64,000 nucleotides of DNA from an uncultured Muribaculaceae bacterium (GTDB lineage: Bacteria; Bacteroidota; Bacteroidia; Bacteroidales; Muribaculaceae). Both the position numbers and the translations under genes were made by a program. Shown here piece after piece: positions 1,201 to 39,253 of this stretch. The stretch lies in the NCBI GenBank assembly GCA_905233845.1, contig CAJOFH010000013.1, positions 30,531-94,530 on the forward strand, written 5' to 3'. The notes beneath the pieces were generated by a model. It was not told the origin of the DNA, made no database searches, and saw only the letters and a list, made by a program, of their open reading frames with translations. Numbering within the stretch: position 1 is the first letter of the stretch; every line of letters starts with the position of its first letter.

Positions 1201-2175
1201 ATGGCAGGAAGACTTAATTTCACCCTGGAAGACTATCAGACCGCGGCCATCAAATGGCGCAAGGATCTGCTTATGCTTCCCATCATCGGAATCTCCGACA
1301 CCCTGCAATATATGACAGGGCGTCCCGGAATCCGATACAAAGAGATTGTGGGCACCATCAATGCTGATGCCCAGTTTGCTCCCTACAAGTCCAACCGACG
1401 CGCCGACGTGGATCTCACGCTCGACCACCGCACGCTGGAGACCCACTTCGGCAATGTGGTGCTCGACTTCGAGCCGAACACCGCCATCAGCACACTGCTC
1501 GGCACCGGCGCAACGAAAGGCGACGGTCAGATGACCACGCCCACCGCTTTGCACGTGCTGGCACTTATCGCAAAAGGCTTGTCCTCGCACCTCAATGATG
1601 CTATTTGGAACGGCGTGCGTGATGCCAATGGCGACACCACTCACGATTTGTTCGATGGCTTCGACACTATCACCGAAGCGGAGATTGCCGCCGAGACCAT
1701 CAGTGAAACCAACAAGAACTACATGAAGCTCACTGAAGAAATCACCGCCGCCAACGCCGTTGACGTGGCGAAGGAGATTCTTTATTCGCTTGACCCACGC
1801 TTGCGTGCAAAAGACTTGAACTTGTACTGCTCGCAGGACTTCGCCGACAAGTACAACGAGGCCATGTTGCTTACCCACGGTGGTATTAACTACTACAACC
1901 AGTTCAATCAGAACTGCGTCGAGGGAAGCAACGGACGTTTGCACATCGTGCCGCTCTACAACAAGACCGACAGCAAATTCTTCCACGTCACACCCAAGAG
2001 CAATATGCTCGTGGGCTATGACCAGATGGGCGACGTGGAAAGCATCATGGTCAAGGAGTATGCTCCTTTCGTGCTTACCTACATCGCCACCATGTTCTTT
2101 GGTGTGCAGTTCGAGAGCATCGACTACCGCACACTCAAAGTAATTGAGTTGGCTGACAATGATTCAAATCCATAA
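1201..2175 (+). CDS. putative phage major capsid protein
   Basis: 324 aa, position in morphogenesis operon, capsid-like composition. Confidence 0.65.
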   Translation: MAGRLNFTLEDYQTAAIKWRKDLLMLPIIGISDTLQYMTGRPGIRYKEIVGTINADAQFAPYKSNRRADVDLTLDHRTLETHFGNVVLDFEPNTAISTLLGTGATKGDGQMTTPTALHVLALIAKGLSSHLNDAIWNGVRDANGDTTHDLFDGFDTITEAEIAAETISETNKNYMKLTEEITAANAVDVAKEILYSLDPRLRAKDLNLYCSQDFADKYNEAMLLTHGGINYYNQFNQNCVEGSNGRLHIVPLYNKTDSKFFHVTPKSNMLVGYDQMGDVESIMVKEYAPFVLTYIATMFFGVQFESIDYRTLKVIELADNDSNP

Positions 2176-2199
2176 CCCATAAAATCCACACATCGTATT

Positions 2200-2853
2200 A
2201 TGGCAACGAATTGTACCAGTATTCAAAACTCGCTCGCTTGGTGTCAGGGAACGCCCGAACTCCCTGGCATCAAGAGGCGAATCTACTACATCAGCAAAGA
2301 CCAAATCGTGAATTGGCCTACGCTCCAGCACGACACGCATGGTCGTCTCACTTCGGCAGTGTATAACGGCAACTTCGAGCTTGCCGCCGATGCCACTTGG
2401 AAGTTCATCGACATCCTGCCCGATAAGTCACAGCTCACCAGTGAGGCACAGGGCGAATACCCCAGCCAGACGCAGTTGAACAAGCTGACCGCAGTTCACC
2501 CAGGAGTGGGCGTTAACGCTTCGGCTCTTGCCGCTTACGTCAACAACTGCGACTGCGTGTTCCTTGTCGAGACAGTCAGAGGACGTTACCGTGTAGTCGG
2601 CAGCGAGAAATGGCAGGTCAAGTCCACGGTCGCACAGGATCTCGGACAAGGTGCCACCGGCACCACCAGCACCACGCTCTCGGTGGAAGCCACCGACGAG
2701 TGCCCCGCTCCCTTCTACAACGGAAAGATTGAGACCGAGGACGGTGTAATCAACCCGTCTGGCACTGCTACACAGTGGAACGGCGATGACCAAATCGCCG
2801 GTCCAGTCCAAATGGATCCGAATGACCAAATCGCCGAACCATACAATCCCTAA
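2200..2853 (+). CDS. putative major tail tube protein
   Basis: 'YRVVGSEKWQVKSTVAQDLGQGATGTTSTTLSVEATDECPAPFYNG' resembles tail-tube C-terminal region. Confidence 0.5.
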   Translation: MATNCTSIQNSLAWCQGTPELPGIKRRIYYISKDQIVNWPTLQHDTHGRLTSAVYNGNFELAADATWKFIDILPDKSQLTSEAQGEYPSQTQLNKLTAVHPGVGVNASALAAYVNNCDCVFLVETVRGRYRVVGSEKWQVKSTVAQDLGQGATGTTSTTLSVEATDECPAPFYNGKIETEDGVINPSGTATQWNGDDQIAGPVQMDPNDQIAEPYNP

Positions 2854-2868
2854 TGACTGCCAATCGGC

Positions 2869-3555
2869 ATGATTGACAGCCAGCGCGACATCGGGAGAAC
2901 ATCGGTCGACATGGGAGAGGTCTTGCGCGACATCTCCTTTCCTAATGCCGACCTTGATTCTCTCGATGTTTCATTTCCCGACAGCGGTTCTGCACCCCAG
3001 AGCCGCGCCCAACAAAAGGATTTGTTTGCCGTGCAGAAACGCAAGTCGTGGGATAAGTCCACCGAGGCTCGGTGTGACTTCTCCTATAGGCTTCGGCTGA
3101 CACGTCGCTCGGACATCAACTTTATCTCCATCTGGCAAAAGACCGTCTACGGACGCACACTCACCGACATCAAGGGCGACCCTGATATGGTGGACTTCTT
3201 TGCCGTCAGCATTTGCCCGGTCATCAAGGAAATGCTCGGCTACAACCTCAAAGATGGTAACTGGTGCATTGTCACTTCACCGAAACGCCGTCACAAGGTC
3301 AAGAACTTTTCGACGCTCATCAGCGAGAAATTGGGGCAAATGCTGGAGATTCCGTTTTACGAGGACGTGGCATTTTGCCACACTAAACAACGGGTGAACG
3401 CTGTTTTTGACCTCAATGTACTGCCCAAGGAGCCAAACATCATTGTCTATGATGACTTTGTGACAACGGGGCAGACATTGGCGGCTATGCGCAGGTTGCT
3501 CCAGCCGTTGGGCAAAAATCTCGTTTGGTTTACTAACGTCAACAATAAGCTTTGA
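2869..3555 (+). CDS. phosphoribosyltransferase-like protein
   Basis: 'NIIVYDDFVTTGQTLAAMRRLL' matches the PRPP-binding signature of type I PRTases. Confidence 0.65.
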   Translation: MIDSQRDIGRTSVDMGEVLRDISFPNADLDSLDVSFPDSGSAPQSRAQQKDLFAVQKRKSWDKSTEARCDFSYRLRLTRRSDINFISIWQKTVYGRTLTDIKGDPDMVDFFAVSICPVIKEMLGYNLKDGNWCIVTSPKRRHKVKNFSTLISEKLGQMLEIPFYEDVAFCHTKQRVNAVFDLNVLPKEPNIIVYDDFVTTGQTLAAMRRLLQPLGKNLVWFTNVNNKL

Positions 3556-3558
3556 AAT

Positions 3559-4290
3559 ATGAACGAAGAATTTACCAAGCAGGTACAAGATTGGCTGAAT
3601 ACTGCCGCCGAGGAGCGAGACAACGCACAAGGCGCGTTGCTCTTGCTCAAACTCACCGGCAACCAAATCATGTACCGAAATCTGATGGCTAATCCGAAAC
3701 GGAACGCCCAGTTTATTGAATACCAGTTGCAGAAACGGCTCAACTTCCGGCTAGCCAAGCTGACCCATGAACAGGTAGAGCAAATGCAGTCGCAAGTCAA
3801 TGTCATCGTAACGAAACGACACCTTGAACCGAAGCAGGAAAACCCTGCCAACGAGTTCCGCAAAGGCAAGCGTGCCGACCACGACACGCTGCCCGATGAG
3901 ATTCAGGCCCTCTATGTCGAGAACCTGGGCATCCTTCATAAGATGCGCGAGCTTCACCTGCGGCTGCGTAATCTCTCCACAGAGGAAAATCCTGCTCGTG
4001 ACTGCGACCGCTATCCGTTCCTCAAAGAACTTATCGAACTTGATAAGCGGCTGCACGCCAATTGGGAGCAGTATGACCACTTCACAGGTGCCGACGGCGA
4101 GGCGGTGATGACTGCCGACGCACGCGAGGAGAGTAAGAAGGCAGTCCGCTGGATTAACCTTGCCAAAGGCAGATATGCCAAAAAGCCAAGCGAGGAACTG
4201 AAAAGTCAGATCCTCGACTTCTATGGCAAGGTCATCAATCCTACGGACAAACTCACCAGTGATTTGAAGAAGCTGGGATTACTTGAATGA
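3559..4290 (+). CDS. phage hypothetical protein
   Basis: ORF 243 aa, tightly packed in operon. Confidence 0.6.
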   Translation: MNEEFTKQVQDWLNTAAEERDNAQGALLLLKLTGNQIMYRNLMANPKRNAQFIEYQLQKRLNFRLAKLTHEQVEQMQSQVNVIVTKRHLEPKQENPANEFRKGKRADHDTLPDEIQALYVENLGILHKMRELHLRLRNLSTEENPARDCDRYPFLKELIELDKRLHANWEQYDHFTGADGEAVMTADAREESKKAVRWINLAKGRYAKKPSEELKSQILDFYGKVINPTDKLTSDLKKLGLLE

Positions 4291-26783: not shown

Positions 26784-27272
26784 ATGGATTTTTTCGTAGA
26801 AACGCTCAAAAACGCATCACTCCACATCCATGCCGTGTGGCTTGCCATCGCATACGTTGCCGTGATACTGGCAATGGCCGTCGATTTCATCGCCGGACTG
26901 CGAAAGGCGAAAATCGCTGGCAAGGTCACAACAAGCAGGGCATTGAAAATGACCACAGAGAAAGCAACCAAGTACTTTCTCCCTATGTTGTGCCTCTCCT
27001 GCATTGACGTTCTGACTTCCGTTGTCCTGCCAGCACCGTTCTTCACGCTGCTCATGGGCGCGTTCAACATCTTCTGCGAATGGAAGTCGGTGCTTGAAAG
27101 CACCCACGACAAGCAGGAGTTGCGCGAAGCAGCCAACACCTTCAACGTCATTGTCAAGAACAAGGACGACATCGCAGGTATCATTATGCAAGCGATGGAG
27201 ATGATGGAGAAGAAACAAGCCATCGAGAGTAATAACAAAAATATCAACCCCCAAACAACAGAAGAAACATGA
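26784..27272 (+). CDS. phage holin-like membrane protein
   Basis: 'VDFIAGLRKAKIAGKVTTSRALKMTTEKATKYFLPML' typical of toxin-secretion/lysis holins. Confidence 0.7.
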   Translation: MDFFVETLKNASLHIHAVWLAIAYVAVILAMAVDFIAGLRKAKIAGKVTTSRALKMTTEKATKYFLPMLCLSCIDVLTSVVLPAPFFTLLMGAFNIFCEWKSVLESTHDKQELREAANTFNVIVKNKDDIAGIIMQAMEMMEKKQAIESNNKNINPQTTEET

Positions 27273-27721
27273 AAAAGAAAGTCATGAACATCAGACCGCA
27301 GGAAGTCACCCAGGGCGGCGAGCGGTCAGTCCAGTACAAAGGCAGCGACGGCAAGATGCACGGCATCGCACCCGCTGGCAACGGCGGTGGCACCGCCCAA
27401 TCAAACATCGTGCTTGAAGTCAATTTTGCCGACGACGGCAAAGCGTTCACCGAAAGTGAACTGATTGACTATCTCACACAGTTCATGAACGGCAAGTGCA
27501 TTATTTGCATTTCCGACAACAACTGGGGCACGCAGAATGAGCGTCGCGTCGCTCTCGTCACCCGTGCCAAAGGCTTCGAGGTCGTTGACGGAAGCATCGT
27601 CATCGGCAACTCGCTGACTTTCGAGCTTGCAAGCCCATCGGCTTTCGGCGACCTCGACGAAGTTATGTTCCTCAAACAGCAAGACGGCAGCTTTGAATTG
27701 TCCCACTATTTCAACAAGTAA
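27269..27721 (+). CDS. modular phage protein, paralog 1
   Basis: N-terminal ~45 aa nearly identical to next gene; C-terminus unrelated. Confidence 0.6.
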   Translation: MKKKVMNIRPQEVTQGGERSVQYKGSDGKMHGIAPAGNGGGTAQSNIVLEVNFADDGKAFTESELIDYLTQFMNGKCIICISDNNWGTQNERRVALVTRAKGFEVVDGSIVIGNSLTFELASPSAFGDLDEVMFLKQQDGSFELSHYFNK

Positions 27722-27724
27722 GCT

Positions 27725-28312
27725 ATGAAAAAGAAAGTCATGAACATCAGACCGCAGGAAGTCACCCAGGGCGGCGAGCGGTCAGTCCAGTACAAGGGCA
27801 GCGACGGCAAGATGCACGGCATCGCGCCAGCTGGCAATGGTGGCAGCACCGCCCAATCGCAAGACGTGCATCTTAAAGATGCCTTCGTCATCTACCGAAA
27901 TAATATGGATCTTTTTGGTCAGGGCGAGCGGACGGTCATCTACAAGATGAACGACTGGGTAAGAACGGAAGTCGATGTCGACACGCTCATGCAAGCACTG
28001 GAGCAGAACGCATCGCAACCAGTCCTTATTCAATTAGAGTCAATGGAAGAAGGCTTCAATGTGGTGGCAAGAGTAATCAGTCTTGCATTGAGCCAAAACG
28101 AGGAAGATGAATCTTATTCGCCTTCGGTGATTTGTCTCCAATGGTGGGCTTACGAGGGTAATGTCGTGGATATTTTCAATGTTGTCCTCGAAAAAAATGA
28201 GCAAGGCTCCACCATTGAGTTTATCCCACAGGCCTTTGCAATAGGTAACGATGATTCAGGAAATGGTCAAATCGCTAACGGTCCAGAAATTGGAGGCAAT
28301 GGAAAGTTATAA
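27725..28312 (+). CDS. modular phage protein, paralog 2
   Basis: As above. Confidence 0.6.
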   Translation: MKKKVMNIRPQEVTQGGERSVQYKGSDGKMHGIAPAGNGGSTAQSQDVHLKDAFVIYRNNMDLFGQGERTVIYKMNDWVRTEVDVDTLMQALEQNASQPVLIQLESMEEGFNVVARVISLALSQNEEDESYSPSVICLQWWAYEGNVVDIFNVVLEKNEQGSTIEFIPQAFAIGNDDSGNGQIANGPEIGGNGKL

Positions 28313-28916
28313 GAACAGAGTAGTCATCCTCGGCACGGCGCACGGCTGCAACGTGCCGGGAAAATGCTCGCCCGACAAGAAGTTCCGCGAGTATCGATTC
28401 AGCCGTGATGTTATCAAGCAGCTGAAGCCCCAACTCGAAGCGCTCGGCTTGCTCGTCTTTGTCGATATGCCAGGCGACGAGGTGCCACGCCCGGGCAACA
28501 CCGAACTTTCGCTCCGTTGCCGTTACGTCAATGGAATATGCTCAAAGTTCGGCACGCAGAACTGCGTCTATGTGAGTATTCACGTCAATGCCGCAGGTTC
28601 TGACGGGCAGTGGCACACAGCACGAGGCTTCGCAGTCTATGTGGCACGCCAATGCTCAGAGGCGAGCAAGCGGCTCGCAAAATCCTTTTGCGAAACCGCT
28701 ATCGCCATGGGATTGCGCGGTAACCGCTCCATCCCCAAAGAGCATTACTGGCAAGCCAATTTCTACGTTGTAAAGAACACCGCTTGCCCTGCGGTGCTGA
28801 CCGAGAACTTGTTCCAAGACAACCACGACGACGTGGATTTTCTCGCATCACCAGAGGGCAAGGCGAAGATTGTCGAACTCCACCGCACCTGCATCGCTAA
28901 ACATTTTGGACTATGA
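28299..28916 (+). CDS. N-acetylmuramoyl-L-alanine amidase (amidase_3 type)
   Basis: 'VVILGTAHGCNVPG', 'VYVSIHVNAAGSDGQWHTARGF', 'AVLTENLFQDN'. Confidence 0.8.
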   Translation: MESYKNRVVILGTAHGCNVPGKCSPDKKFREYRFSRDVIKQLKPQLEALGLLVFVDMPGDEVPRPGNTELSLRCRYVNGICSKFGTQNCVYVSIHVNAAGSDGQWHTARGFAVYVARQCSEASKRLAKSFCETAIAMGLRGNRSIPKEHYWQANFYVVKNTACPAVLTENLFQDNHDDVDFLASPEGKAKIVELHRTCIAKHFGL

Positions 28917-29464
28917 AAGCACTCTCACTCGCTGCAACCACGGCAATGCTTGCTGTGGTATTGCTCGCGTCGTGCCACTCCAAAAAGGAAGTCACGGCTA
29001 CCACGAAAGAGCAGTACGACATCGAGACGGCTGGCTCAACTCTCACTGCAACCGACGAGCGGTTGCAGTGGTTGAGCCGCTTATCGCTCGACATCGACAG
29101 CTTCGAGGTGGTGATACCCACACGCCATTTTGCTGAAATCGGCAAGATGGCTGGTGACACGGCGATGGATCTGCCTGAACAGTTTGCCCTCTCCGCAAGC
29201 CAACCTCGCCCTGGCTCGGTTGTCCTGCGAGGCAAACACGCACGATTGGGCAAGGCCGACATCGTTCAGCGCAACGCTGCGCGTTGCACTTCACAGGTTG
29301 ACACACTGTCGGCTCACCGCTCAATCGACAAGGCAGACCATTACGCTCGTGACAACGTGGGTATATACAAGCCACCCGATGTGACGTGGTGGCCGTGGCT
29401 CCTGCTCACAGGTCTGCTCGTGGGTTCCATTATCATCATTTGGCTGAAAGAAAGAGGTAAATAG
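28913..29464 (+). CDS. lysis-associated lipoprotein (spanin-like)
   Basis: Lipobox 'LLASC', C-terminal TM, downstream of amidase. Confidence 0.5.
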   Translation: MKALSLAATTAMLAVVLLASCHSKKEVTATTKEQYDIETAGSTLTATDERLQWLSRLSLDIDSFEVVIPTRHFAEIGKMAGDTAMDLPEQFALSASQPRPGSVVLRGKHARLGKADIVQRNAARCTSQVDTLSAHRSIDKADHYARDNVGIYKPPDVTWWPWLLLTGLLVGSIIIIWLKERGK

Positions 29465-29503
29465 TTTTTTCATGATGATTTTTGAGTTTAATATGTTCAT
29501 TCA

Positions 29504-30445
29504 AGTAAAGGCTTTGCCGTGAGGCACGGCCTTTACTGCTTCAAGGTGTAAACACATAGCGACCGACCCCACACACCCGCCCTTGACACAATGCAAGCAT
29601 TGCCAAATTGCCCACCCCAGCCCCCGATGTGGGCGGCGTTCCGGACTGGCTCGGCATGGCGGCGATGAGCTTTACGTTGCGGACACCGGCTAACGGCTCA
29701 CAACATCAATCGGGTATCGAGGCGGCAAGCCGTTTCGACACCCGATTTCGCCACCGCCAAACCCACGCACTCGGCTCTTATCGGTCGCTACCATTGCGCA
29801 CCGCGTCTCATTCCGACATCGAAAGTGCCACGCCTACGGCTTATATGCCTCTCTATTGACGGCGTTACGGAAGCGCATCAAGTCTGCCTCGTTACATCGG
29901 GTATCGGTGCGCCAAGTCGCACTGACACCCGATGATTTTCCACTATGTCAGACACAATGCTCGACAGGTCGTTCCGTAACGCCTATGGTTCGGCAAGGGC
30001 ACACTCAATGCTCCAATCGTCTTGTGCTCCATTACCGCTCCCTGCAAGCCCAGTGCTCTCGCTGCGCTCGGGGATTGTCGGTGGGGTGAGCCTATCCGAA
30101 GTCCTTCACTATGCTCGTCGCACGCAATGCTTCTCACCGCCCAATGAACACTCGCCCACATCGCCTAATCACAAAATCAAGGCGCAAGCGAGTTGAGCCA
30201 CGATTTTGATTTAACGATTTTCGGCAATCCGAAAATCTCGAACAGCGGAAGCCAAAGTGTGCCGCCGAAACCAAAACTGCGTTTCGGTTCATCGGCTCAC
30301 ATTGGCGCTCTGACCGCACATTCAGCTCGGTCGAAAAGGCAATTTGCGAAAGCGAGGAAGAGGGTGGTCGGGGGGTCTTTGCAGACAGCAACGGGGCGCA
30401 GCCCCGTACCCCAGAAAAGGCTGTTACACAGCCTTTTAATTTTTT
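29504..30445 (+). ncRNA. candidate large structured non-coding RNA (~940 nt)
   Basis: No convincing ORF; many strong hairpins and long-range helices; ends in terminator 30415-30445. Confidence 0.7.
30415..30445 (+). terminator. rho-independent terminator
   Basis: AAAAGGCTGT-tac-ACAGCCTTTT-aa-TTTTTT. Confidence 0.85.
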
Positions 30446-30626
30446 CAATCCTTAACAAATCGTGTGTTTCCGTAAATCGAGGCTGAAAATACGCAGAAAT
30501 ATCGACTGATTTTCAGTCATTTACACACTTTGTTGTTTTGCACTTTCTTGCACAATGTTGCACATCGGCAAAGTTCCTGCAAAGGATTGAAAATTTCGCT
30601 CGCCAATAGGCGAGGTCGGCAATGTC

Positions 30627-30669
30627 TTTTATAGGTCGGAACGACAAAATTACTTTTGTGCCTATAAAA
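30627..30669 (+). promoter_or_regulatory. tape-measure promoter within 9-bp inverted repeat
   Basis: TTTT-N20-TACTTTTG; TTTTATAGG / CCTATAAAA arms flank it. Confidence 0.6.
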
Positions 30670-30685
30670 TCCATAATCTACTACA

Positions 30686-33600
30686 ATGAGCAACATAAAC
30701 AGTCAAGCAACGGTCAATCTGACCGTGAACGGTCAGCAACCCCTCCAAGTCCTGCAAATGCTGAAGCAGCGTGCAATGGAGTTGGAGAATGCCATCGCTA
30801 AAGCGGCTATGGCAGGGAACAAAGTGGAGCTGCGCAAACTCCGCAGGGAGTTGAGCGACACCAAGCGGCAAATGCGTGAGATTGAAACCTCAACCCAGCA
30901 GGTCGAGCGAGTAATGCTGCGCCTCGACCGAGCCACGCCCAAAGAGTTGAACAAGACCTTACAGACCTTGAACCGACAACTCGAATACATGGAACGTGGC
31001 TCTGCCGCATGGAACTCCCACGTGGCTAAAATCCAGCGTGTGAAAGCCGAACTCGCAAAGGTCAATGCCGAACTCCGCACGCAGGAGTCGTTCTGGACCC
31101 GCTTCAATCGTAAACTCAACGATTGGCAGACATCGCTCATGGGCATCGCAGCTTTGGTCACCGGCCTTGTCATGGCAGGGCGCAAGGCGGTGAACTCCTA
31201 CGCCGAGATGGAAGAAGAAATCGCCAACACCATCAAGTACACCGGCATGGCTCGTGACGAGGTGGTGGCGATGAATGATTCATTCAAGGCAATGGACACC
31301 CGAACAGGGCGAGACAAGCTCAACGAACTGGCGCAGGAAGCAGGACGCTTGGGCAAGAACACCAGGGAAAGTGTTCAAGGCTATGTCGAGGCAGCCGACA
31401 TCATCAACGTGGCGTTGGTGGACTTGGGCGAGGGAGCGACCCAAGTCATCGCCAAGCTCACCAACATCTTCGGTGTCGAGCAGATACTCGGTACCAAAGA
31501 CGCAATGCTCGCTGTCGGCTCGACGGTGAATGTCCTCTCGCAGAACTGTACCGCGGCGAAACCCTACCTTGTGCAGTTCGCCCAACGCATGGCTGGTGTG
31601 GGCGCACAGGCGAGAATGACAATCCCCGAAATACTCGCCTTCGCGGCCACCCTTGACGCTAACGGTCAAAAGGTAGAGATGTCGGCTTCGGCGATGTCGC
31701 GCCTTATTATGATGTTGTTTCAAAAGCCGCAGGAGATAGCAAAGACTGTCGGGCTTGACGTGGAGAAGTTCACCGAGACGCTGAACCGCAGCACCAACGA
31801 GGGCGTGCTGATGTTCCTCGGCAAATTGCAGGAGATCGGTGAGGCTGACGCACTTGCCGCACTCTCGCCCTTGTTCAAGGACTTGGGCATGGACGGCATC
31901 CGCATGGCCCAGGTCCTCGCCACGCTCGCCACCCACCTCGACATGGTGAAGTGGGAGCAGAAAGAGGCGAACAAGGCATTTACCGAAGCCACGTCTGCGA
32001 CCCGCGAATACAACATCTTCAACAACACTGCCCAAGCAGGTATCGACAAGGCACGCAAGCACATCCACGAGCTCGCCATTGAGTTAGGAGAGAAACTCCT
32101 GCCTCTATACAAGCATATAATGACGAGCGGAAGCGCCATGCTGCGATTCCTGAATGTGCTGGTGAATTTCTTTGTCCAGTACAAGGGATTGATCGTGACC
32201 TTCACGGCATCATGGATTGCCTACAAGGTAGCGGTCAACGCCAGCAACATCGCTTTCAAGGCTCATTACTACTGGCTCGTCATCACCGAGGGAGCGCAGA
32301 AGTTGCTCGGAACGGCAACGCTGGCTCTCAAAATCGCCTTCTACGCTCTCACGGGGCAGGTCGAGAAGGCAAAGGCAGCTTACACCGCTTTCCACCTTCT
32401 CACCAAGACCACGCCGTGGGGCATCATCCTCGCGGCTGTCACCGCATTGGGAGTGGGCATTTATAATCTCTGCACACGCACCGACGAGCTGACGAAGAAG
32501 ACCAACGAGGCCGTCAAGGCAGCCAAAGGCTACAATGCCGAAGCCGTGAAAGAGCAGCACGAACTGGACGTGCTTTTCGGCAAGCTCAAAGGTGCCGAGA
32601 AAGGCACGAAAGAGTATGAGGACGCGAAACGCGCCATCATCAACCAGTACGGCAAGTACCTCTCCGGTCTCATCAACGAGAAAGGCGAAATCCTCAATCT
32701 CGAAGCCGCCTACAACCGCTTGACTTTGGCGGTGAGGCGGTCAGCCCAAGAGCGAGGCATCGCCGCGGCACGTGAGCAGATTGACCAGGAATATTACAAG
32801 TCGCTCGCTTCGGGCTTGACAGACCTGCAAGCCTCGCTCGAAAGTGCCGGAGCGACCACAAGGGACGCAGCCGAGATTGTCGCAGCCGTCAGTTCAGCGA
32901 TGGCGGCTGGCAAGCCCATACCGCAGAACTACATCAATAAAATCAACGGCTACTCCAAAGGTATTGAGTGGCGGTTGCTGCCCGACTGGGTGGGCGGCAG
33001 CCAGCACCCCTTCTGGGGCGGCGACAGCCGAAAGCCGGCTCCCATCGTCAACCGTATGTATAATGCATACGAGACCCACCGCAAAGGGCTTGCGGCTCTT
33101 GACGCTATGGAAGACGGCGTTTCCCCATTGAGGCACATAGACAACTATTACCTCAAAGGCACCATCGGGCAGCTGGAGAAGATAGTGAAGAACAATCAGG
33201 CGGGCAACGCCATCGTGTTCATCGAGGGCACGCAGCAGGGCGAGTACAAGGAAGTCTCGGTTGCCGAAGCCAAGCAGCTCCTCACACAGTACCGTGAGGA
33301 ACTTGCCTACCGTGGCGCCAGCAAGACCGATGCCACTGGCTTGAACCTCGACACCACTGGCGGCACCGGCGGTGCGGCTGGCGGCGTGGGCGGCGCATCG
33401 CCCAAGACCACCAAAGGCGGCGGTCGTGGCGGCTCGCAGAAGTCCGAGGACAAGTTCAAGGCGGAGAAAGACTGGCGAGAGTACCAGGAAGCCTTGAACC
33501 GCATCGCCTATGCAACAGGGGAAAAGAACTATGAGGAATACACCAACAGAATGTTGGAAATCGAGGAAGCGTTCTACCGCAAGCAACTGGCTCACGCAGA

Positions 33601-35488
33601 TCTCACGGCTAACGAACGCATCTCGATAGAGGCACAGCTGTATGAAGTCCTGCGCAAGCAGACCGAGACCGCCAACAAGAAGACCATCGAGGATGAGAAT
33701 CGGCTGTATGCGCTCCGAAAGTCGGAGACGCAGCAGCAGTACATCGACGGCTTGTTGTCGACCGAGGCATACAACGAGCAGATGCAGCGCATCGAGCTTG
33801 AACACCTCAAAGCCATCAAGGACATCTACAGTGACCAGGCGTTCGCGCCCATCACCGAGTGGGAGGAAACCAAGCGGCAAGCAGCCGAGATGATGCAGAC
33901 GCAGTTCAACGGCAACGTCGACCTGCTCAACAGACCCGTCATTGACGCTCACGAGCTGACAAAGGCGGGCTGGAAAGGCAATCCGCAAAACGAGGGAGAG
34001 GCCACCGCGACGGTGTACTCATCCCAGTACGGCATCAAGGACTCCACAGGACAAGTCCGTGAAATCCTTGTCACGCCCATCTTACCCGACGGCTCAGTCC
34101 TTACAGAGAAAGAACTGAAAGATTACGTCTACAAGACGCTGCAGGGTGCAGAGGACATTCTCGAAGCCGATGACAAAGGATTGGTCATCGCCGTGGACGT
34201 AAGCGCAGACGGCAAGGCTGGCGAGAATCTGCACACCATGCAGGAAGCCTACAATTCGTCAAAGCCGAATGTAGATGAAAAGGCATGGGCTAACTTCCTC
34301 GCTGCCGAAGAAGCCTATCAGAACAAACTGATTGCCGAGCAGCAGAAGAAGCAGCGTGAGGCAGAGGAAGCCGAGCAGAAGCACCAGGCTGAACTCAAAC
34401 GCATCAAGGACGAGTATTTCGGCAACAACGCAGCCGAAAACAAGGCTCTCTACGACGAAGCCATCTCGAACCTTGATAAAGTGTACCAAGCCGAGGTAGC
34501 GGCAGCTGGCGACAATGCGAAGGAGAAACTTCGCATTGACGAGGCTTATGAGAAAGCCAAGCTCGCCTTGAAGAAGAAGTACAATCAGATGGGCGGCGAG
34601 GAAGACCGCAACGCCATGCAGAAGTGGAACCAGGATCTGCTCGACTGGCTCAATGGCGACGGCGGACAGGCCGTCACCAAGAGCGTCGAAACATTGACAT
34701 CGGGAATGTCAAGTATCTTCTCGCAGCTCTCCTCACTTGTGCAAGCCGAGATGGAGATTGAAACCGCTGCCGTGGAGAAACGCTACGAGCGTGAGGTGTC
34801 TATGGCAGAGGGCAACAAATACAAGACCAAGCAGCTTGAAAAGCAGAAGCAGAAAGAGATTGCAAAGGTCAAGGACGAGGCAAATAGGAAACTGTTCGCC
34901 ATGCAGGTAATCCAAGCCGTGGCGCAGACGGCAACGGCTGCGCTCAACGCCTACTCATCGGCTGCCGCTATTCCTGTGGTGGGCTACATACTCGCGCCTA
35001 TCGCCGCAGCGATGGCTATTGCCGCTGGCGCAATACAGATTGCGACCATCAAGAAGCAACAGCAAGCCAGCACCGCGCAGGGCTATGCCCGGGGCGGTTT
35101 CACCAAGCAGGGCGCAGTCGATGAGGTAGCTGGTGTCGTTCACGCAGGAGAGTGGGTGGCAAGTCAGAAGCTCCTTGCCTCACCGGTGGCTCGCCCACTC
35201 ATCGAGGCCCTGGACTATGCGCAGCGGACAAACACAATCGGCAGTTTGAGACAGTCCGATGTGAGCCGCACGATTACTGCTCCCGCAGTATTGGCGCAGT
35301 CCCAAGCCCCGACAGTCATTGTTCAAGAGAACAAAACTCTGCGTGAAACGCTCGCTCGCTTGAATGAAAGGCTAAATGAGCCTTTCGTCACCGTGAACAC
35401 CGTGACTGGTGATCTCGGTATCAAGCAAGCGCAAGATGATTACCAGCGATTGATGAACAATAAATCCCCGAAGAATAAACGCAAGTAA
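30686..35488 (+). CDS. phage tail tape measure protein
   Basis: 1600 aa, coiled coils, 'MEEEIANTIKYTGMARDEVVAMNDSFKAMDTRTGRDKLNELAQEAGRLG' typical TMP core. Confidence 0.9.
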   Translation: MSNINSQATVNLTVNGQQPLQVLQMLKQRAMELENAIAKAAMAGNKVELRKLRRELSDTKRQMREIETSTQQVERVMLRLDRATPKELNKTLQTLNRQLEYMERGSAAWNSHVAKIQRVKAELAKVNAELRTQESFWTRFNRKLNDWQTSLMGIAALVTGLVMAGRKAVNSYAEMEEEIANTIKYTGMARDEVVAMNDSFKAMDTRTGRDKLNELAQEAGRLGKNTRESVQGYVEAADIINVALVDLGEGATQVIAKLTNIFGVEQILGTKDAMLAVGSTVNVLSQNCTAAKPYLVQFAQRMAGVGAQARMTIPEILAFAATLDANGQKVEMSASAMSRLIMMLFQKPQEIAKTVGLDVEKFTETLNRSTNEGVLMFLGKLQEIGEADALAALSPLFKDLGMDGIRMAQVLATLATHLDMVKWEQKEANKAFTEATSATREYNIFNNTAQAGIDKARKHIHELAIELGEKLLPLYKHIMTSGSAMLRFLNVLVNFFVQYKGLIVTFTASWIAYKVAVNASNIAFKAHYYWLVITEGAQKLLGTATLALKIAFYALTGQVEKAKAAYTAFHLLTKTTPWGIILAAVTALGVGIYNLCTRTDELTKKTNEAVKAAKGYNAEAVKEQHELDVLFGKLKGAEKGTKEYEDAKRAIINQYGKYLSGLINEKGEILNLEAAYNRLTLAVRRSAQERGIAAAREQIDQEYYKSLASGLTDLQASLESAGATTRDAAEIVAAVSSAMAAGKPIPQNYINKINGYSKGIEWRLLPDWVGGSQHPFWGGDSRKPAPIVNRMYNAYETHRKGLAALDAMEDGVSPLRHIDNYYLKGTIGQLEKIVKNNQAGNAIVFIEGTQQGEYKEVSVAEAKQLLTQYREELAYRGASKTDATGLNLDTTGGTGGAAGGVGGASPKTTKGGGRGGSQKSEDKFKAEKDWREYQEALNRIAYATGEKNYEEYTNRMLEIEEAFYRKQLAHADLTANERISIEAQLYEVLRKQTETANKKTIEDENRLYALRKSETQQQYIDGLLSTEAYNEQMQRIELEHLKAIKDIYSDQAFAPITEWEETKRQAAEMMQTQFNGNVDLLNRPVIDAHELTKAGWKGNPQNEGEATATVYSSQYGIKDSTGQVREILVTPILPDGSVLTEKELKDYVYKTLQGAEDILEADDKGLVIAVDVSADGKAGENLHTMQEAYNSSKPNVDEKAWANFLAAEEAYQNKLIAEQQKKQREAEEAEQKHQAELKRIKDEYFGNNAAENKALYDEAISNLDKVYQAEVAAAGDNAKEKLRIDEAYEKAKLALKKKYNQMGGEEDRNAMQKWNQDLLDWLNGDGGQAVTKSVETLTSGMSSIFSQLSSLVQAEMEIETAAVEKRYEREVSMAEGNKYKTKQLEKQKQKEIAKVKDEANRKLFAMQVIQAVAQTATAALNAYSSAAAIPVVGYILAPIAAAMAIAAGAIQIATIKKQQQASTAQGYARGGFTKQGAVDEVAGVVHAGEWVASQKLLASPVARPLIEALDYAQRTNTIGSLRQSDVSRTITAPAVLAQSQAPTVIVQENKTLRETLARLNERLNEPFVTVNTVTGDLGIKQAQDDYQRLMNNKSPKNKRK

Positions 35489-37724: not shown

Positions 37725-38960
37725 CTATTTCTTGCCATATAGCACCCAGTCAAGCACTTTTCTATTGGCCTCATCGACCTTGCTTTGGTCAAAGTCAATG
37801 TAGATGTCGGTCACTGTGTTGTTGCCGTGTCCGAGAGCATGGGCGATAGTGTCCTTCGGAATGTCAAGAGAAGCGGCGATTGTAGCCCACGAGTGACGCG
37901 CCCAATACGTTGATATTTGGGGAAATAGTGGCTCGTATTCTTTCTTGCCTCCACGCCCTACACGCTTCACTGGACCAATCTTTTTCAAAGCTCGGTTCAT
38001 TCGTTTTGTGTAGTCCTTATAGTCCTTGTATCGGTCAAGAATGTTAAGCAGCCACTTCTCGCCACGGTAGCGATTGATGATTTCCAACGCCTCTGGCTCA
38101 ACCTTTATACTATAAAGGCGGTTAGTCTTTGCTCTGTGAAACTCCACCCGGCCATCCACAATAGCCGTGAGGTTGCAAAGGTCAATCGCATTGATACCCA
38201 GCAGCATAAACATCAGCTTGAACATATCAAGATACTGTTGGGCGTGCTTCTCACAAGGATAGTTGAAAAACTTACGAAGTTCCTCTACTTTGAGGTTTCG
38301 CTTGGCAGTCGCAACATTGCGGATAGAGAAGCGACGGAACGGGTAGAACGTAGTGATTTCATCATCAAGAGCCTCGTTGAAAACGGCTCTGATGTTGCGC
38401 AAATGAATGTTGCGAGCGTTCTTTGAGGGTGATTGAGGGATGAGGTGAGAATCAAACTTCGTCAGCCATTCCTTTGTAATATCCTCGAAAGCAAGCGTTT
38501 CGAGTTTCTTACCTGCGAACTCAACCATACGCTTATATGTGTCCATATAAATGCGTTTGGTACTCGGCTTTTTGCTGTCAGCAAAAGCGAGGTAGCGTCT
38601 GACAAACAAGTTCTTACGCCGTTCCGCTTGTTCTTTAGCCTCGACCTTGCTGGGATTGAGTTTGCGCTCAATCTCTAGTTTAATGTCGTTGGCAGTCATA
38701 CTTTGCAGACTGCCAGCGTCAGCGAGGATAAAGATAGTACGCTCCACCTGCTGCATAATCCCCATCAAATACAGGTTTAGCACCTTTTGCTCTGGGTGGT
38801 TCACCACCATAGACTGCCCGCAGTCCCATTGCGTGGGCAGCAGTCGTGCATCAGTTGAGATGTACGAAGTCTTGTCACGGTGACCGATAGCCACCTTCAA
38901 GACCGACGGAGACCCAGGTTTCGTTCTCCGTGTGTCAAGGAAAAACTTAGTTCTTGCCAT
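37725..38960 (-). CDS. tyrosine recombinase/phage integrase
   Basis: 'YWARHSWATIAASLDIPKDTIAHALGHGNNTVTDIYIDFD'; start MARTKFFLD. Confidence 0.9.
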   Translation of the reverse strand: MARTKFFLDTRRTKPGSPSVLKVAIGHRDKTSYISTDARLLPTQWDCGQSMVVNHPEQKVLNLYLMGIMQQVERTIFILADAGSLQSMTANDIKLEIERKLNPSKVEAKEQAERRKNLFVRRYLAFADSKKPSTKRIYMDTYKRMVEFAGKKLETLAFEDITKEWLTKFDSHLIPQSPSKNARNIHLRNIRAVFNEALDDEITTFYPFRRFSIRNVATAKRNLKVEELRKFFNYPCEKHAQQYLDMFKLMFMLLGINAIDLCNLTAIVDGRVEFHRAKTNRLYSIKVEPEALEIINRYRGEKWLLNILDRYKDYKDYTKRMNRALKKIGPVKRVGRGGKKEYEPLFPQISTYWARHSWATIAASLDIPKDTIAHALGHGNNTVTDIYIDFDQSKVDEANRKVLDWVLYGKK

Positions 38961-39008
38961 ATAAAACCTCCCGCTACTCTCCGCACAACTTTCGTGTCTC
39001 TCAAATCC

Positions 39009-39040
39009 ACCTTGTACGTACAAGGTAATGTACAAGGTAA
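39009..39040. repeat. palindrome plus direct repeat upstream of integrase
   Basis: ACCTTGTAC|GTACAAGGTAAT|GTACAAGGTAA. Confidence 0.8.
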
Positions 39041-39178
39041 ATGGGGCGATATGTTGAGAAATCGTGTAAAATTGTGCAAATTTGGCGTTTTTTTTAATGG
39101 CATTTACCGCCTAAAACGGCAAAAAAGTAAGGTCGGAAATAGGCTTAATCGCCTATTTACCAACCTTTTCCTTTTCAG

Positions 39179-39253
39179 TCGGGATGACTAGATTCGAACT
39201 AGCGACCCCACGCCCCCCAGACGCGTACTCTAACCGGACTGAGCTACATCCCG
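39179..39253 (-). tRNA. tRNA-Pro (anticodon GGG)
   Basis: Cloverleaf read by eye: CGGGATG acceptor, loop CTGGGGG, T-loop TTCGAAT, CATCCCG-A. Confidence 0.9.

Follow-up and report, generated by a model that had tools for sequence, protein, structure and literature searches.

A candidate family of large structured non-coding RNA in temperate Bacteroidales phages and integrative islands

Results

A gene-free gap between the lysis and tail genes of a Muribaculaceae prophage

The window, the whole stretch of 64,000 nucleotides analyzed here, stems from an uncultured Muribaculaceae bacterium and contains a prophage whose late genes lie on the plus strand, in the order holin-like gene (26784), amidase gene, a 183-amino-acid open reading frame (ORF), a gene-free gap, and the gene for the tail tape measure protein (TMP). 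The lysis gene upstream of the gap (28251-28916, plus strand) encodes an N-acetylmuramoyl-L-alanine amidase (PF01520, 1.1e-20; PHROG endolysin). It is followed by the 183-amino-acid ORF (28913-29464, plus strand), which has a C-terminal hydrophobic stretch and homologs at the equivalent spot in related phages, and for which no family match was found in Pfam or PHROG. Downstream of the gap lies the gene for the 1,600-amino-acid TMP (30686-35488, plus strand), identified by PF10145 (1.3e-17), a PHROG TMP match, and synteny. The prophage integrase gene (37725-39035, minus strand; PHROG integrase, 4.2e-26) adjoins a tRNA-Pro gene (39178-39253; ARAGORN), which is likely the attachment site of the prophage. 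The products of two neighboring genes of the window (27269-27721 and 27725-28312) share their first approximately 40 residues (MKKKVMNIRPQEVTQGGERSVQYKGSDGKMHGIAPAGNGG) and then diverge; neither has a family match.

The gap between the end of the 183-amino-acid ORF at 29464 and the TMP start at 30686 comprises positions 29465-30685. A whole-genome nucleotide search of 298 sampled relatives detected DNA homologs in 65, almost all of the same genus, and an iterated nhmmer profile retrieved many full-length copies (E<1e-150) spanning approximately 29604-30463. ORFs in the gap are disrupted by frameshifts or stops in the homologs, mostly several per homolog, and one short ORF is intact in the closest homolog, L038, only. 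Together with the covariation reported below, these data delimit a conserved non-coding element of approximately 860 nt (29604-30463, plus strand), the 5' end of which is approximate. BLASTN searches against phage and plasmid records returned chance matches only, and no description of the element was found in the literature searched, which was restricted to open-licence papers.

Several claims of the original prediction can be judged at this point. The presence of a gap of about 1.2 kb without a credible ORF between the lysis genes and the TMP gene held, and conserved protein coding, which would have refuted the prediction, was not seen, since no frame survives in the homologs. The proposed extent of approximately 940 nt (29504-30445) was corrected to approximately 29604-30463. 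Placement of the 5' end at the first hairpin (29504) failed, as did the weak promoter proposed upstream of it (box 29492-29499), which is not conserved among homologs. The first hairpin itself (AGTAAAGGC..GCCTTTACT, GUGA loop; 29504-29537, strand not assigned) is real. It is terminator-like in sequence and closes the lysis gene block, and a hairpin matching it in position was shared by no homologs other than L038, L041, and L043, the closest phage relatives. It is thus a boundary hairpin that likely lies outside the family-wide element.

The element is folded and its helices covary

Minimum free energy z-scores of the window region relative to shuffled sequences were -5.5 for the plus strand and -9.1 for the minus strand, and means over 15 homologs were -4.3 for the 5' part and -5.3 for the 3' part. 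In an alignment of 26 full-length sequences, covariation was significant in 13 of 202 predicted pairs against a null of substitutions simulated along the tree; this test was our own R-scape-like implementation, not R-scape. When all column pairs of the same alignment were considered, only 3 reached significance. That test was underpowered, and therefore the one limited to predicted pairs was used instead.

The best evidence for the 5' part comes from long-range helices. A central branched domain (29846-30000, plus strand; model R2) is closed by a helix between 29861-29872 and 29972-29983. In 18 sequences and 34 pairs of this domain, 96.4% of cells were paired, with double compensatory changes in 18 of the 34 pairs. 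Its covariation score of 0.354 compared with 0.139 after shuffling and was not reached by any shuffle, and shifting the partner by one column lowered pairing to 34-42%. R2 matched the window's own genome with an E value of 4.8e-26. As an example of compensatory change, the helix GGCGTTACGGAA/TTCCGTAACGCC reads GTTGCAGGAA/GTCCTGCAAC or TTTGCCCGAG/GTCGGGCAAC in relatives. The 5' part further contains the hairpin AATCGGGTATCG..CGACACCCGATT (29708-29747, plus strand), of which a second copy lies at 29895-29934 (38-nt repeat, 79% identical).

Toward the 3' end, a hairpin at 30172-30208 (plus strand) includes the covarying pairs 30175-30205 (E, 0.01) and 30182-30198 (E, 0.04). The 3' domain includes an outer stem and the inner hairpin CCGAAAC..GTTTCGG (30251-30304, plus strand), supported by the covarying pairs 30253-30304, 30254-30303, and 30263-30294. 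Downstream of these lies the 3' core (30318-30450, plus strand; model R1, 90 matches), in which a GGG/CCC multiloop around two hairpins is followed by a terminator hairpin. Across the 90 sequences, 84.4% of cells were paired, compared with 67.5% after shuffling, and the top five column pairs were all base pairs of helix 3 or helix 4 (E at most 0.05). Helix 3, the hairpin ACGGGGC-GCA-GCCCCGT (30391-30407, plus strand), shows the strongest covariation, with the pair types AU, GC, CG, and UA among the 90 sequences. Helix 4 (30415-30437), a covarying stem, and the T tract behind it form an intrinsic terminator (30415-30445, plus strand). A conserved tail (TTTTTTCAATCCTTAACAAATCG; 30439-30463, plus strand) was defined from the alignment and match positions and is found at the last 3' module in tandem arrays.

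The 90-sequence alignment was fitted to a covariance model, which favors the model's own pairs. A like covariation pattern was obtained in phage contigs collected without using the RNA, although these were also model-aligned. RNAalifold with default scoring gave a weak signal on a plain MAFFT alignment of the 3' module because subtypes were misaligned, and this was resolved with the covariance model.

All hairpins quoted in the original prediction were found in the sequence at the positions given for them. Those at 30265-30287 and 30391-30407 and the terminator stem at 30415-30437 held and covary throughout the family. That at 30216-30237 held in part: it is lineage-specific, being present in some close relatives and absent from the 90%-identical L038. 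Long-range helices such as 29861-29872 with 29972-29983 had been overlooked. Absence of covariation would have counted as refutation, and strong compensatory change was found instead. We consider it very likely that the element in the gap is a large structured non-coding RNA, an inference from conservation and covariation, as no transcript was observed.

Strand, terminator, and promoter

A TTTT tract is present behind the last hairpin in 63 of the 90 copies, whereas the mirror arrangement, AAAA before the hairpin, occurs in 3 of 90. Transcription of the plus strand is likely; this is inferred from the terminator and from the direction shared with the late genes. The inference leans on the terminator because neither wobble counts nor folding energies discriminate between the strands. 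GU and AC counts of 31 and 53 in sampled full-length helices, and of approximately 138 and 109 summed over the 3' core, favored neither strand; folding energies were equal for both strands, and Watson-Crick-only folding and shuffled energies did not decide between them. No promoter conserved among homologs was found. A promoter-like TACTTTTG, recognized by sequence only, lies at 30651-30658 between the RNA and the TMP gene. At the left boundary of the element in L034, L056, L063, and L209, a minus-strand GCGA-loop hairpin with TTTTTT behind it resembles a terminator, and together with minus-strand TAnnTTTG-like boxes it suggests a short divergent transcript.

Distribution and association with the TMP gene

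The R1 covariance model gave matches in 61 of 101 host-genus genomes, 71 of 299 genomes of the family (16 of 30 sampled genera), and 8 of 395 genomes of the order, other Bacteroidales families among them. In a sample of 399 genomes of the phylum, the only match was in the window's own genome, which carries a single R1 copy. A pattern scan of named genomes retrieved mainly rumen and gut metagenome-assembled genomes with the labels Muribaculaceae, Prevotellaceae, or Bacteroidales, and additionally Barnesiella sp. An55. The central domain R2 scarcely extends beyond the host genus, outside which it is barely recognisable, and folding energy of the 5' parts of distant phages was not above that of coding controls. 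Giant size is therefore demonstrated only within this clade; outside the host genus, a large size is an upper bound given by gap length only. In the broader family, conservation is limited to the 3' core.

The TMP gene is the constant neighbor of the RNA in phages, and in distant genera, too, a TMP homolog usually lies downstream of the R1 match. Viral contigs picked solely by TMP protein similarity provided 51 loci, some of them overlapping or without upstream DNA. They contained 33 R1 matches with E values up to 1, and for 26 of these the E value was below 1e-3; every match lay upstream of the TMP gene and on its strand. The distance from the R1 end to the TMP gene was 85-966 nt, with a median of 189 nt (41 loci).

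Some phage loci showed further peculiarities. Three contigs contain, upstream of the RNA and the TMP gene, a match to the SAM-I/IV riboswitch that exceeds the Rfam gathering score, which is unusual for phage (L228:2741-2851, L231:2472-2583, and L235:2296-2413); that in L228 is followed by a 137-amino-acid ORF (2847-3260). A viral contig collected by the R1 pattern, without an R1 match, carries six tRNA-like genes, and the type of two of these is unclear (L177:5185-5814). In L057, an element fragment (685-1024) lies directly 5' of the TMP C-terminal end, reflecting rearrangement or misassembly.

Copies on integrative islands

Copies of the element without a TMP gene sit on integrative islands, which widens the phage and prophage setting originally proposed. 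These copies are accompanied by BT4734-like primase, DUF3987, or integrase genes and lie near tRNA-Ala, tRNA-Pro, tRNA-Lys, or tRNA-Leu/Gly genes. ArdA is encoded upstream of the element in five islands, with Pfam confirmation for one, and islands also carry the defence genes AbiEii, IetAS, and DrmD-like. A convergent gene faces the island RNA: an integrase gene in L039 and L078, a primase gene in L048, L050/L219, L079, and L092, and a tRNA-Ala gene in L072. On some islands the 3' module is arrayed in tandem, with as many as four copies at a single site. A mosaic indicative of exchange is seen in genome G011, where the phage copy matches the island copy at 94.7% identity for 828 nt and then at 88.5% for the following 323 nt.

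One island has 18 tRNA genes with varied specificities in an array (L220:16453-17968; G024:C34, the same as locus L156); ARAGORN found no tRNA array near the window copy. In L220, the tRNA genes and a gene for a T4 Rnl2-like RNA ligase lie near the element, and the island also carries IetAS defence genes and ArdA. Beside another ArdA island, a defence cluster (L218:170-12224; G060:C1) includes a type I specificity subunit, a GmrSD/DUF262-like protein, and a DrmD-like helicase.

Comparison with known RNAs

GOLLD, ROOL, HEARO, and OLE should all be included in Rfam 15. Neither cmscan of the window and 25 relatives at the gathering threshold nor a permissive search of window positions 29300-30750 (E up to 5) and of L072 positions 1300-4200 (E up to 1) yielded a covariance match to any of them. 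The element therefore represents a new family and not a member of these four. The original prediction had left open membership in a giant RNA class or a new one; the latter part is supported, and membership in a known class failed.

Discussion

The element resembles GOLLD in its location in phages and prophages, its size of approximately 800 nt, its constant 3' and less conserved 5' region, and the occasional tRNA arrays (PMC12286853). This is resemblance in architecture and ecology, not membership. Unlike GOLLD, the element has a fixed place upstream of the TMP gene, a tandemly duplicated 3' module, and copies on ArdA/primase islands; it has no sequence or covariance match to GOLLD and in our samples occurs only in Bacteroidales. 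ROOL (Rumen-Originating, Ornate, Large) is likewise a large structured phage or plasmid RNA of gut and rumen origin found near tRNA islands (PMC12286853, PMC5643018), but again there is no covariance match. Vibrio phage ICP1 produces an abundant RNA of approximately 800 nt from an orf-less space of about 1 kb at its lysis cluster (PMC7567579); the setting is alike, although the host is unrelated and no sequence was compared. The packaging pRNA of phi29, a phage RNA acting in trans, is similar in that respect but has only 174 nt and lies near packaging genes.

A cis-regulatory role must be considered, in which the element would be the untranslated leader of the TMP gene and tune TMP via its terminator by attenuation or antitermination. 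Its constant place on the same strand, a median of 189 nt ahead of the TMP gene, and the terminator hairpin in between speak for such a leader. Island copies, however, lack a TMP gene and face convergent genes, and therefore a pure leader role is unlikely; the tandem 3' modules, a size far above that of known attenuators, and the separate promoter-like box ahead of the TMP gene, which rests on sequence only, also count against it. Similarly doubtful is an anti-defence RNA, carried like ArdA by phages and islands and serving as decoy or inhibitor of host anti-phage systems. ArdA upstream of the element in five islands and the island genes for AbiEii, IetAS, and DrmD-like proteins fit this idea, but phage copies are located among late genes, those for lysis and tail, rather than early ones, and no likeness to a known RNA family was found in Rfam.

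The hairpins might alternatively act at the DNA level, as a site of recombination, packaging, or single-strand replication that is not an RNA. Wobble pairs are rare and balanced between the strands, and several islands place the element near an attachment tRNA gene. We nevertheless regard this as improbable, given the strand-specific T tract of the terminator and the covarying long-range helices with spacings above 100 nt, unusual for DNA sites. Duplicated segments inside the element could hint at decayed coding sequence or cassette remnants. This possibility is practically ruled out by covariation: nucleotide-level conservation across the genus is accompanied by compensatory changes, and no frame survives.

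On balance, with confidence only slightly above even, we favor a new family of large structured non-coding RNA in temperate Bacteroidales phages and in integrative islands of the same hosts, acting in trans by a GOLLD- or ROOL-like mechanism; its transcription and function are inferred, without an observed transcript. Action in trans is the likely, albeit inferred, part of this reading. The plus strand would be transcribed, probably from the late region between the lysis and tail genes, transcription would stop at 30415-30445, and the RNA would act on its own, independent of a downstream gene. The likeliest mechanism, drawn from the parallel with GOLLD and ROOL, is that it accumulates late in the lytic cycle. 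GOLLD and ROOL have recently been shown to form RNA cages. Purely by analogy, a large RNA particle might assemble from it, with or without a host factor, and may help the phage or island to exploit the dying cell.

It is tempting to go further and see in the element another giant phage RNA class, specific to Bacteroidales, that combines a constant 3' module, present in up to four copies on islands, with lineage-specific 5' domains. Such an RNA would be needed in trans by phages and by probable satellites, be exchanged between them by recombination, and, late in infection, assemble into a particle made of RNA only or of RNA and protein. We lean slightly against this bolder version as it stands, with both the satellite status of the islands and the particle being inferred.

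Among structured RNAs whose function is not known, giant phage RNAs rank with the largest. A family unrelated to GOLLD and ROOL in Bacteroidales of the gut and rumen, linked to the TMP gene in phages and also present on islands, suggests that phages acquired such RNAs more than once. The family offers tractable comparisons, of the constant core with the variable domain, of single with tandem copies, and of phage with island copies in one genome, and a core copy in the named isolate Barnesiella sp. An55 adds tractable material.
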